From Streptomyces sp. NBC_00708 (GTDB lineage Bacteria; Actinomycetota; Actinomycetes; Streptomycetales; Streptomycetaceae): 64,000 nucleotides of DNA. Shown here one piece after another: positions 16,243-20,422 of the stretch. The stretch is taken from contig CP108997.1 in NCBI GenBank assembly GCA_036226585.1, forward strand, positions 2,666,001 through 2,730,000, in the 5' to 3' direction. Position numbers and translations under genes: made by a program. The notes beneath the pieces are model-generated. The model had not been told where the DNA came from. It saw nothing but the letters and a program-made list of their open reading frames with translations, and did not search any database. The stretch's first letter is position 1, and each line of letters begins with the position of its first letter.

Positions 16243-16556
16243 CGAGGTACGGGCCCTCCGGCCGGGTCCGGGGGAGGTCCCCCCGGGGGCTGCATCGGTG
16301 TACACGCGCGCCCTGTCGGGTCGTTGGCGCGTCTCGGACGGGGCCCCACACTAACGGTACGGATAACCCGGGGTGTGCGGAGCGGTTGACCGAGGGTGCG
16401 GAGGGGAAGGGCGCGGCGCGTATATCGGGCCGGGTCCGGCATGACGGCGCCGCCTGCCGGGTACGGCGATGGCCCGCCGCCTGCGGAGGCAGGCTGCGGG
16501 CCATGGGTGCGCGGCGGTGCGCGGTGGGTCGGGGGCGGTCGGCCGGGTCGGCCCGG
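16243..16556. terminator. Gap between whiB and the glycosyltransferase; bipartite hairpin at 16469-16504
   Basis: About 50 bp past the whiB stop lies a two-part hairpin: an outer 9-bp stem (ATGGCCCGC with GCGGGCCAT) and an inner 6-bp stem (GCCTGC with GCAGGC) around a GGAG loop, separated by one C/T mismatch. It is a likely whiB terminator. The remaining bases up to 16242 should hold the glycosyltransferase promoter; I see no coding sequence. Confidence 0.6.
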
Positions 16557-16820
16557 TCAGATCGCCGCCTTCTTCAGGCGCCGGCGCTCACGCTCGGAGA
16601 GACCGCCCCAGATGCCGAACCGCTCGTCGTTGGAGAGGGCGTACTCCAGGCACTCGGACCGGACTTCGCAGGCGAGACAGACCTTCTTCGCCTCGCGGGT
16701 CGATCCGCCCTTCTCGGGGAAGAAGGACTCGGGATCGGTCTGGGCGCACAGTGCGCGCTCCTGCCAGCCGAGCTCCTCGTCCGCGTCCTCGACCAGCAGT
16801 TGCTGGAACAGCTCGGTCAT
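16557..16820 (-). CDS. whiB: WhiB, iron-sulfur developmental regulator
   Basis: An 87-residue WhiB-family (Wbl) protein. The four [4Fe-4S] ligands are C25, C48, C51 and C57 in the pattern C-x22-C-x2-C-x5-C, followed by the G(I/V)WGG turn (GIWGGLSERERRR) and a basic C-terminus. The sequence MTELFQQLLVEDADEELGWQERALC is close to what I remember of S. coelicolor WhiB itself, and its position beside the cysteine dioxygenase and the large glycosyltransferase matches. From literature on the family, WhiB acts with WhiA to switch on sporulation septation genes. It has a long upstream region, in keeping with complex developmental control. Confidence 0.96.
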   Translation of the reverse strand: MTELFQQLLVEDADEELGWQERALCAQTDPESFFPEKGGSTREAKKVCLACEVRSECLEYALSNDERFGIWGGLSERERRRLKKAAI

Positions 16821-17272
16821 CTGCGCCCCTCGTCCGTCTCTTGCGTCCCGTGATACGGCCGTTACCGAACCGGCCGAACGACACGGGTGAAATTACAAGC
16901 GTGTAGCTCTGGCTGGTCAAGCCCAGATCTGCTATTGGCCCCGGTATTCACCCTGCGGCACCAACCGTATGCGTTAAGTGTTCAAATCACCAAAAACCTG
17001 ACATATGCCATGGGCTCTCCCGCGCCCCGGCCCGTCAGGGAGAGAAACCCCCACGAGCCCGGACACGTTGCGATTCGATCACTGAAGCGACCAAGATCAC
17101 ATTCGGGTCACGGCGCCGCACCCGTGTTTATCGGCACGACTGTTGCGCCACCTGTCCCTGTCGGCGACCGCTAAAACCTTTCTCCTCACGGAGTAACCGG
17201 ATGAGGTGAAACATTGCCGCCAAACCGGTCATTGGGTTGACAGTGGGCGGTTCTCCGGTTCTCCTTGATGGC
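16821..17272. promoter_or_regulatory. whiB / cysteine dioxygenase divergent control region
   Basis: This region is visibly more AT-rich than its surroundings (about 16880-17110). Ahead of whiB is an inverted repeat TTACA-N4-TGTAG at 16893-16906, about 75 bp upstream of the start, and a GACAC at 16880-16884. On the plus strand a consensus-like -35 hexamer TTGACA occurs at 17237-17242, 30 bp before the leader-ORF ATG. An open frame at 16887-17174 has no coding character. Both whiB and the dioxygenase transcripts must start in or near here. Confidence 0.5.
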
Positions 17273-17368
17273 ATGCCAGTGACCTCAGCGACGCACGCCA
17301 CCCGCGCCCGTGGGTTCCGTAGCGCTGTCCAGGCTCGCTGTTGCTGTTCCAGCTGTCTCAGCTGTTGA
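17273..17368 (+). CDS. Cys-rich leader peptide, 31 aa, upstream of cysteine dioxygenase
   Basis: This short ORF starts with the ATG at 17273 and ends in TGA. It encodes 31 residues whose last nine are CCCSSCLSC: five cysteines, four of them TGT codons. It lies on the same strand as, and 158 nt before, the cysteine dioxygenase gene. There is no Shine-Dalgarno sequence, but TTGACA at 17237-17242 places a transcription start close to the ATG if the spacer is about 18 nt, which suggests a leaderless message. Cysteine clusters in short upstream ORFs act as cysteine sensors in mycobacteria; the match between the clustered residue and the downstream enzyme's substrate is why I call it a leader peptide. 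Expression is not shown. Confidence 0.7.
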   Translation: MPVTSATHATRARGFRSAVQARCCCSSCLSC

Positions 17369-17526
17369 TACCGCCGACGCCGTCGTAGCCCCGCTCCGGC
17401 TCGGCCCCGCTCGTCCCGGACCTCCCCCACGCGGCCCCTCCGGCCTCGCGGCCACCGGCCCCCGGTCCCGTGACGAGTCCCTCGCACCCCACGCCGTACT
17501 CGCACCCGCCGAGGAACCACCGCCCC

Positions 17527-18060
17527 ATGAACAGCAGCGACAGCGACCTCCAGATCGCCGGCGACCTCCTGGAGGTCCCGCACCTCCTTCGCCCCGCCCG
17601 CGAACACCCCGTCACCGTGGCCGAGTTCGTCGGTCTCGCCCGCACCATCGCCGCCGATCGCGACCTGTGGGCACCGCTCGTCCAGTACGACGCCACCAGC
17701 CGCTGGTACCACCGCCTGCGCACCGTTCCCCAAGGTCTCGGCTCCGCTCGACCAGGGGAGACCCCACTCGGTTACGAGGTCTGGCTGCTGAGCTGGGTGC
17801 CGGGCCAGGGCAGCGGGCTGCACGACCACGGCCCGTCCTCCGGTGTGCTGACCGTGCTCGACGGCGAGCTGACCGAGCGCACGGACCGGGGCAAGCGGAC
17901 GCTGGGCGCCGGGGCGCAGCGCGTCTTCGCCCCCGGCTACATCCACGAGGTCGTCAACGACTCCCTCGAACCGGCGGTCAGCCTGCACATCTACTACCCG
18001 GGGCTCACCGACATGCCGATGCACGCCGCGCAGTGCGCCCCGGCGGTCGCCACGGCCTGA
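17527..18060 (+). CDS. Cysteine dioxygenase family protein (cupin)
   Basis: A 177-residue cupin that should oxidise cysteine to cysteine sulfinate with non-haem iron. The iron site is readable: GLHDHGPSSG (two histidines of motif 1) and GYIHEVVN (third histidine), with the intervening VLDGELTERTD beta hairpin. I took the ATG at 17527 (MNSSDSD), preceded by GAGGA; the ATG at 17470 would prepend a proline/histidine-rich segment. The Cys-rich leader ORF lies upstream and fbiA/cofD follows 98 bp downstream on the same strand. Substrate could also be another thiol, since bacterial members include 3-mercaptopropionate dioxygenases. Confidence 0.9.
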   Translation: MNSSDSDLQIAGDLLEVPHLLRPAREHPVTVAEFVGLARTIAADRDLWAPLVQYDATSRWYHRLRTVPQGLGSARPGETPLGYEVWLLSWVPGQGSGLHDHGPSSGVLTVLDGELTERTDRGKRTLGAGAQRVFAPGYIHEVVNDSLEPAVSLHIYYPGLTDMPMHAAQCAPAVATA

Positions 18061-18158
18061 ACAGCCCCCGTGCCCGAACCCAAGAGCTCCTGACAGTCCC
18101 ACCCCTCGCCCACCACCACCCCGACAAGGACCAGGCTCCGCCTGACAGACTGTTTCGC

Positions 18159-19115
18159 ATGCGCATTGTGGTTCTGGCCGGCGGTATCGGTGGTGCTCGT
18201 TTTCTGCGTGGCCTCAAGGAGGCCGCGCCCGACGCGGACATCACGGTCATCGGCAACACCGGTGACGACATCCATCTGTTCGGGCTCAAGGTCTGCCCCG
18301 ACCTCGACACCGTGATGTACACCCTCGGCGGTGGCATCAACGAGGAGCAGGGCTGGGGCCGGGCCGACGAGACCTTCCACGTCAAGGACGAGCTCGCCGC
18401 GTACGGCGTGGGCCCCGCATGGTTCGGGCTCGGCGACCGCGACTTCGCCACGCACATCGTCCGTACGCAGATGCTCGGCGCGGGCTACCCGCTGAGCGCC
18501 GTCACCGAGGCGCTCTGCGCGCGCTGGAAGCCGGGTGTGCGGCTGCTGCCCATGTCCGACGACCGCGTCGAGACGCATGTGGCGATCGACGAGGGCGGCG
18601 AGAGCCGGGCCGTGCACTTCCAGGAGTACTGGGTGAAGCTGCGGGCCTCCGTACCGGCGCGGGCGATCGTGCCCGTCGGCGCGGAGCAGGCCAAGCCGGC
18701 GCCCGGCGTCCTGGAGGCGATCGGCGAGGCCGACGTCATCCTCTTCCCGCCGTCCAACCCGGTCGTCTCCGTCGGGACCATCCTCGCCGTGCCCGGCATC
18801 CGCGAGGCCATCGCCGAGGCCGGGGTGCCGGTCGTCGGCCTCTCCCCCATCGTCGGTGACGCGCCGGTGCGCGGGATGGCCGACAAGGTCCTCGCGGCGG
18901 TGGGCGTCGAGTCGACGGCCGCCGCGGTCGCCGAACACTACGGTTCCGGGCTGCTCGACGGCTGGCTCGTCGACACCGTGGACGCGGGCGCGGTCGAGCG
19001 GGTGGAGTCGGCGGGCATCCGCTGCCGGGCCGTGCCGCTGATGATGACCGACGTCGCCGCCACCGCCGAGATGGCCCGGCAGGCGCTGGCCCTCGCCGGG
19101 GAGGTCCGCGCGTGA
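18159..19115 (+). CDS. fbiA: 2-phospho-L-lactate/phosphoenolpyruvate transferase of F420 synthesis (CofD/FbiA)
   Basis: A 318-residue enzyme joining the activated three-carbon unit to the deazaflavin FO, giving F420-0 or its dehydro form; in actinomycetes the donor derives from phosphoenolpyruvate. The Rossmann start [19 protein letters not shown], the NTGDD motif, and [12 protein letters not shown] are family hallmarks. The stop overlaps the start of fbiB by 4 bp (GTGA at 19112-19115), so the pair is translationally coupled. The ATG at 18159 leads directly into the conserved glycine-rich loop, which fixes the start. Confidence 0.95.
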
Positions 19116-20422
19116 GCGCCGGCGACGCCCCCTCCTACCGGGTGTGGGCCCTGCCCGGGATGCCCGAGGTGCGGGCCGGGGACGATCTCGCGAAGCTGAT
19201 CGCGGCCACCGAGCCGGGGCTCGCCGACGGCGACGTCCTGCTCGTCACGTCGAAGATCGTTTCCAAGGCGGAGGGCCGGATCGTCGAGGCCACCGACCGG
19301 GAGGCGGCGATCGACGCCGAGACGGTACGGGTGGTGGCCCGGCGCGGTCCGCTGCGCATCGTCGAGAACCGGCAGGGCCTGGTCATGGCCGCCGCCGGCG
19401 TCGACGCGTCGAACACCCCCGCCGGCACGGTCCTGCTCCTCCCCGAGGACCCCGACGCCTCCGCCCGGACCATCCGGGAGGGGCTGCGGGCGGCCCTCGG
19501 CGTCGACGTCGGCGTCCTGGTCACGGACACCTTCGGCCGGCCCTGGCGCAACGGGCTGACCGATGTCGCGATCGGCGCGGCCGGGGTGCGGGTGCTGGAC
19601 GACCTGCGGGGCGGGCAGGACGCGTACGGCAATCCGCTGAGCGCGACCGTGGTCGCCACCGCCGACGAGCTGGCCGCGGCGGGCGACCTGGTCAAGGGCA
19701 AGGCGGACGGGCTGCCCGTCGCTGTGGTGCGCGGGCTCGGGCACGTCGTGGACGCGGCCGACGAGCAGGGCGCCCGTGCGATGGTGCGGGTCGCGACCGA
19801 CGACATGTTCCGGCTGGGGACCTCCGAGGCGGTACGGGAGGCGGTGACCCAGCGGCGTACGGTGCGCGAGTTCACCGACGAGCCGGTGGACCCGGGGGCG
19901 GTACGGCGTGCGGTCGCCGCCGCGGTGACCGCGCCGGCGCCGCACCACACGACGCCGTGGCGCTTCGTCCTGCTGGAGTCGCCCGAGTCACGGACCCGGC
20001 TGCTCGACGCGATGCGGGACGCGTGGATCGCGGATCTGCGGCGCGACGGCAGGAGCGAGGAGTCGATCGCCAAGCGAGTGCGGCGGGGCGATGTGCTGCG
20101 CCGGGCGCCGTATCTGGTGGTGCCGTGCATGGTGATGGACGGCTCGCACACGTACGGCGACGAGCGGCGGGACGGCGCGGAGCGCGAGATGTTCGTGGTC
20201 GCGGCGGGGGCGGGCATCCAGAACTTCCTGGTGGCGCTGGCCGGGGAGCGGCTGGGGTCGGCATGGGTGTCCTCGACGATGTTCTGCCGGGATGTGGTGC
20301 GGGAGGTTCTGGGGCTGCCGTCGTCCTGGGACCCGCTGGGGGCGGTGGCCGTGGGGCAGGCGGTGGCGGCCCCGGGGCCGCGGGTGGGGCGGTCCGCGGA
20401 GGACTTCGTCGTCGTGCGGTAG
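19112..20422 (+). CDS. fbiB: F420:L-glutamate ligase / nitroreductase-domain fusion (FbiB)
   Basis: A 436-residue two-domain protein. Residues 1 to about 245 form the CofE-type ligase adding glutamates to F420-0 ([35 protein letters not shown]). Residues about 250-436 are an FMN-binding nitroreductase fold ([52 protein letters not shown]). The fusion is typical of actinomycetes, where the second domain reduces dehydro-F420-0. It starts at the GTG overlapping the fbiA stop. Convergent with a DNA glycosylase gene across a gap holding two dispersed-repeat copies. Confidence 0.96.

Follow-up and report, generated by a model that had tools for sequence, protein, structure and literature searches.

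We propose that a short cysteine-rich open reading frame (ORF) upstream of a gene of the cysteine dioxygenase (CDO) type I family in Streptomyces sp. NBC_00708 acts as a cysteine-responsive translation attenuator, which would turn the enzyme on in cysteine shortage; we give this reading a probability of about 0.72. The conservation of the ORF, the spacing of its promoter, a predicted RNA helix and the choice of codons support it in silico; the leaderless start, the stalling of the ribosome, the direction of control and a common response with other loci are what we infer. The window analyzed is a stretch of 64,000 nucleotides of contig CP108997.1 (positions 2,666,001 to 2,730,000), and coordinates refer to it unless another locus is named.

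Leader ORF and genomic context

The leader ORF occupies positions 17273..17368 of the forward strand (31 codons, ATG at 17273 and TGA at 17366-17368). Its C-terminal nine residues are CCCSSCLSC, with TGT at four of the five Cys codons, and 158 nt separate its stop from the ATG (17527) of the CDO-like gene. A first-pass annotation of this DNA had described a 31-codon Cys-rich ORF at that distance from a CDO_I-family gene, and rereading the sequence confirmed it. The range then given opens at the TTG of an upstream hexamer; more probably, the ORF starts with the ATG at 17273. The rarity of TGT remarked on there is also borne out by the four neighboring genes, which have 0 TGT versus 8 TGC. Across the 142 Streptomyces leaders described below, TGT and TGC number 527 and 168, and in the sampled parts of the CDO genes 0 and 40. 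A Pfam search with the leader peptide gave no match. Within the ORF, RNAalifold applied to leader groups predicts a hairpin (P1, ACCCGC / GTGGGT), which we placed by eye at 17300..17315 on the forward strand of the window. Directly 3' of the leader stop, from 17369, there is a conserved GCGCTCCAGC / GAGCTCCAGC block; together with CAGCTG in the last Cys codons, it may fold into a local hairpin.

The CDO-like gene (17527..18060, forward strand) codes for a cupin of the CDO type I family (PF05995, 1.2e-16; PF07883, 1.8e-07), the PF05995 (CDO_I) match being to a partial profile, and GAGGAA at 17511..17516 on the same strand is by eye its likely Shine-Dalgarno sequence. Its neighbors are a WhiB-family gene on the strand opposite to the leader (16557-16820), a CofD gene (18159-19115; PF01933, 1.7e-61) and an F420 ligase with a nitroreductase domain (19112-20422). 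A second CDO_I protein in the same genome has a stronger match (3.1e-46). The best PDB alignments of the CDO-like family are to 8qfr (3.3e-12) and 8qfl (3.9e-12), both titled cysteine dioxygenase. The carboxylate-binding Arg had no sure placement in the alignment of the family. The two structures may be of an ergothioneine dioxygenase, a point for which a search of papers gave no confirmation.

Conservation of the leader

The CDO-like gene is present in 388 of 392 genomes of the genus Streptomyces. The upstream regions were sampled at 149 Streptomyces loci from 148 genomes (G222 being counted twice), made up of the 30 best matches, 40 further listed matches, 50 genomes with weaker matches (out of 60 chosen, the ten weakest being omitted) and 29 loci of a class sample. 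An ORF was counted as a leader if three or more of its last 14 residues were Cys and a TTGA lay 30-37 nt before an ATG. Such a Cys-run leader was found at 142 of the 149 loci. The first-pass annotation had named, as a refutation, a Cys run lost at loci where the dioxygenase is kept, and the comparison of the 149 loci did not refute the leader. The leader was also present at all 80 loci of a named collection, drawn from the query's closest relatives and duplicating 10 of the earlier leaders. In other Streptomycetaceae the arrangement was found at 18 of 20 loci, in 15 of the 16 genera sampled (spacing judged by eye); of the two exceptions, L201 has the promoter and start alone and L208 neither. 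One leader outside Streptomyces (L203), which seems to start with GTG, has Cys at eight of its last 16 residues. Since the Cys-run ORF is kept at 142/149, 80/80 and 18/20 loci, its position before the CDO-like gene is, as judged from sequence comparison, not due to chance.

At seven Streptomyces loci the script missed a leader. One of them (L073) retains the TTGACA-ATGCTCGCGAAC start and another (L081) has a Cys-bearing ORF farther upstream; at the remaining five (L026, L143, L146, L148 and L149) we found neither a start of the TTGACA-ATGCTCGCGAAC type nor an upstream Cys ORF. In the last four of these, the CDO match is preceded by a TTGAC at a distance of 58-89 nt, and three of them have ATGGACAACGAC as the CDO start. 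Among 40 distant CDO-like loci, one of them a second copy in Streptomyces, there was no ORF with the TTGAC spacing. Of these 40, five (L170, L175, L183, L188 and L189) have ORFs that end in a Cys run of another kind, and five (L150, L162, L167, L180 and L182) carry upstream motifs similar to NF042934, so Cys leaders in other forms may have a broader distribution ahead of CDO-like genes.

Promoter-like elements

A −35-like hexamer, TTGACA, is found at 17237..17242 (forward strand), and the spacing of its TTGA is conserved across the Streptomyces leaders. The hexamer had been placed 30 bp before the ATG, which is correct when counted from its end and corresponds to 36 nt from its first base. The TTGA-to-ATG offset is 36 or 37 in 136 of the 142 leaders, 35 in one and 30-31 in five, the latter having a second ATG six bases downstream of the first. 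At the place of the −10 box there is a conserved non-consensus element, CCGGTTCTCCTTG at 17255..17267 on the forward strand of the window (from position frequencies over the 142 loci), and the CCGGTCTCCTTG-like element between hexamer and ATG keeps a constant distance to the ATG at these loci. Hexamer and element together have what looks like the geometry of a promoter initiating at the ATG, without a consensus −10, and no consensus sigma-70 promoter was found in the window segment 16500-18500. From this spacing, the leader transcript is probably leaderless. The CCGGTCTCCTTG-like element, which does not resemble a sigma-70 −10 box, may be the site for another sigma factor or for a regulator.

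Predicted helix between the Cys codons and the CDO start

In Streptomyces, the Cys codons are predicted to form a helix that hides the start of the CDO-like gene. In the window, the leader strand (17335..17348, over the Cys codons) would pair with codons 3-7 of the CDO-like gene (17533..17546), both on the forward strand, in 14 bp, 12 of them Watson-Crick and 2 G-U, with an ensemble probability of 0.72. Of four leader groups folded with RNAalifold, three had the Cys codons paired with the start of the CDO, and one was without the helix. The pairing tests covered 126 loci, 16 of the 142 having been excluded for lack of a start with Asn as the next residue, and for the register test 101 of these were anchored on the leader alone, at its C-x-x-C motif. 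In register, 91.2% of the cells were standard pairs; shifting the register left 28-37% paired at shifts 1, 2 and 4, and 58-66% at shift 3, which is the period of the repeat. The outer positions are weaker, being unpaired in 45 of the 101 loci at −12 and in 30 at −10. The named set gave 91.1% paired in register at its 64 anchorable loci of 80. One pair varies between C-G (54), U-G (10) and U-A (7), counts that are not corrected for the tree. In Streptomyces, the longest uninterrupted helix joining the end of the leader to the CDO start has a median length of 13 bp; it is at least 11 bp at 99 of the 126 loci and 7 bp at nine of them, a count that has no chance baseline. Ensemble pairing exceeded 0.5 in 110 of 122 loci.

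When the leader was recoded with synonymous host codons, the probability that CDO positions +3..+14 pair with the Cys run fell from 0.82 to 0.17; native pairing was reached by 25 of 480 recoded controls (60 of 122 eligible loci). The duplex-energy version of this recoding gave a mean z of −2.65, with p <=0.05 in 90 of 126 loci; recoding of the CDO side gave a mean z of −1.3, with p <=0.05 in 12 of 126. Compared with other windows of its transcript, the CDO start was the strongest partner at just 33 of 126 loci. When duplex partners were exchanged between groups, the swapped duplexes were on average 0.64 kcal/mol stronger, although the native duplex was the stronger one in 65% of loci. Outside Streptomyces, 17 of the 20 loci were examined and 12 had a clear start. 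A helix between Cys run and start was found solely at L197 (11 bp); at L196 there is an 8-bp helix with the Shine-Dalgarno region, L195 has 8 bp from just 5' of the Cys run, and the remaining nine have 7 bp or less. A leader GGTTCC is, by eye, complementary to a GGAACC at the Shine-Dalgarno sequence, which together with the main helix could form a pseudoknot.

Codon choice in the Cys run

At the 101 anchored loci, the third positions of the Cys codons have T opposite A and C opposite G. T is retained at −7 in 95 and at −1 in 98 of them (partner A), and C at −4 in 97 (partner G). Base pairing therefore appears to explain most TGT codons better than rarity does. Rarity of TGT as the sole cause was rejected, because within the same ORFs T and C track the partner A or G. 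The final TGT before the stop, present in 125 of 127 leaders, lies outside the helix, and there pairing offers no explanation. Gap runs are in frame in 55 of 55 cases in the leader and in 72 of 270 in the spacer, a comparison that carries little weight because the definition of the ORF partly forces it.

Third positions of the forward part of the leader show no excess of changes (93, 112 and 87 at positions 1, 2 and 3), which argues against selection on the peptide. This count speaks against the idea of a functional Cys-rich small protein, a metal binder for example, which would account for a Cys-rich end kept across genera and which we consider very improbable; the number of Cys (3 to 7) and their spacing are variable and, as mentioned above, the peptide has no Pfam match.

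Direction of control

In the attenuator that we propose, transcription would begin at the leader ATG, as the promoter spacing suggests. With ample charged Cys-tRNA, ribosomes would pass the Cys codons and depart, and the vacated codons would bind the opening codons of the CDO-like gene, keeping its start closed. With scarce charged Cys-tRNA, a ribosome would stop on the Cys run; since the Cys codons lie within the helix over the CDO start, the helix would not form, the start would be freed and the enzyme would be on at low cysteine. Masking the Cys run reduced the mean cost of opening CDO positions +2..+16 from 11.8 to 6.5 kcal/mol (60 loci); the cost dropped by more than 1 kcal/mol in 45 of the 60 and rose in 4. 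With codons 3-13 masked instead, it was 12.5 kcal/mol, that is, with no decrease. Mean accessibility of positions −14..+16 went up on masking of the Cys run in 84 of 122 loci and down in 20, and at the window locus it was flat (0.56 to 0.53).

We take SCO3035 of Streptomyces coelicolor to be the orthologue of the CDO-like gene and SCO5772 to be the canonical CDO. In the expression results taken from PMC4991794, SCO3035 RNA rose 6.5-fold after H2O2, and SCO6094-6102, SCO4164-4165, SCO2910-2912 and SCO5772 were co-induced. That study ascribes the induction to the two-component system SenR, and its discussion mentions NdgR bound at cysteine-biosynthesis genes. The first-pass annotation had the dioxygenase on at plentiful cysteine. 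Its Cys-run leader before a CDO-like gene, conserved and probably leaderless, stands in silico; the direction is probably the reverse, given the helix geometry and the rise of SCO3035 together with cysteine-biosynthesis genes.

That opposite direction, which suits a degrading enzyme, could come about, for example, by a stall at low cysteine that exposes the C-rich spacer to Rho or by a TnaC-like arrest that shields the spacer at high cysteine. The spacer is indeed rich in C (C 0.48 and G 0.23 versus 0.45 and 0.28 in the first 200 nt of the CDO), and PMC7181669 reports cdo1 and cdo2 up in feather-grown Streptomyces SCUT-3, an induction on keratin that could fit this direction, one of the two being perhaps the present gene. 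Helix geometry, codon choice and co-induction with cysteine biosynthesis (PMC4991794) oppose it, there were 0 terminator-like sites in the window segment 16500-18500, and we regard it as unlikely. Still less likely, in our opinion, is that the leader is a bystander and that the gene is controlled at its promoter by a regulator binding the TTGACA and the CCGGTCTCCTTG element. The strong conservation of the non-consensus −10 region would be expected in that case, and the roles given to SenR and NdgR in PMC4991794 agree with it; promoter control accounts for neither the Cys run nor the helix, and it could operate alongside an attenuator.

Other Cys leaders and a possible cysteine-shortage regulon

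The genome of the window has Cys leaders of known type before cysI and cysA (L218, 14227-14310, reverse strand, and L219, 8165-8272, forward strand). The cysI leader is over the cut-off of NF042934 and reaches 28.2 of 45 bits with NF042936; the cysA leader is also over the cut-off of NF042934 and reaches 41.8 of 45 bits with NF042933. Before the canonical CDO there is a leader, MTDTDVRLWRRVHMDLLRYAGCVCRPSC (L221, 7557-7643, reverse strand), with TTGACC 36 nt before its ATG and over the cut-off of NF042934. By eye, the CCGTCCTG of this leader and the CAGGACGG at the likely Shine-Dalgarno sequence are reverse complements of each other. Finally, an ORF ending in LHVDLCRLSSAICTNHRPAAGREA, a Cys leader by its motif, adjoins a Prok-JAB (mec-like) gene (L220, 8128-8379, reverse strand). 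It lies between mec and cysO-cysM, the gene order being taken from SCO2910-2912, and probably belongs to cysO-cysM. Under the attenuator proposed here, the CDO-like gene would respond to cysteine shortage together with cysI, cysA, cysO-cysM and the canonical CDO.

A cysteine-consuming enzyme that is seemingly switched on at low cysteine is a puzzle, and one that makes its true substrate testable. As a tentative and, on balance, rather doubtful extension, Streptomycetaceae might have a ribosome-read cysteine-shortage regulon with at least five leader-controlled loci, in which the CDO-like enzyme would be a thiol dioxygenase of sulfur salvage instead of cysteine disposal. At cysteine exhaustion it would oxidize another thiol (e.g., ergothioneine or another store) to the sulfinate, giving sulfite for CysI, and the leader Cys codons would be both the sensor and the antisense strand that closes the start. 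If the attenuator is real, the placing of TGT and TGC in its leader would be a clean example of long-range RNA pairing setting codon choice.

Comparison with known systems

We found no report of the Streptomyces leader in the open-licence literature searched. Seliverstov et al. 2005 (PMC1262725) described Cys leaders that, as here, are short upstream ORFs with Cys runs close to the stop and have no terminator; in the sections of that article used here they are named for cys operons of Mycobacterium and Propionibacterium and for cbs of Bifidobacterium, and Streptomyces genomes were surveyed with no Streptomyces cysteine leader named. Unlike a trp-type transcription attenuator, the interval between leader and gene has no intrinsic terminator (within 16500-18500 of the window). 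The leader also resembles NCBIfam NF042934 (cis_reg_atten, putative leader peptide) in being an actinobacterial Cys-containing leader, but NF042934 leaders share the motif R..VDL.R...C, frequently with one or two Cys, whereas the present one has a Cys run and lacks the motif. Three leaders of the present type had no match to NF042933, NF042934 or NF042936 at E up to 10, and because these models give no match we place the set outside the known peptide families; if it is a true leader type, it escapes the NCBIfam leader models.

The closest parallel is with the polycysteine leaderless small-ORF attenuators of mycobacteria (Canestrari et al. 2020, as cited in later work). In both cases Cys codons near the stop precede a gene of cysteine metabolism, and the downstream start is hidden by a structure, here a predicted one, which a ribosome sitting on the Cys run would open. 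For the mycobacterial leaders, a stalled ribosome is thought to disrupt the structure hiding the start (PMC13236596, PMC9031893 and PMC9094748). The present leader differs from them (NF042933, Ms5788A; NF042936, Ms4527A) in its peptide and in the gene that it precedes, which is CDO-like, and possibly also in that the predicted sequestering strand is here made up of the Cys codons. By analogy, the working principle would be that of the mycobacterial polycysteine attenuators, with a peptide outside the known leader families, and, if this is true, cysteine-sensing leaderless attenuation reaches from mycobacteria to the family of the antibiotic producers.
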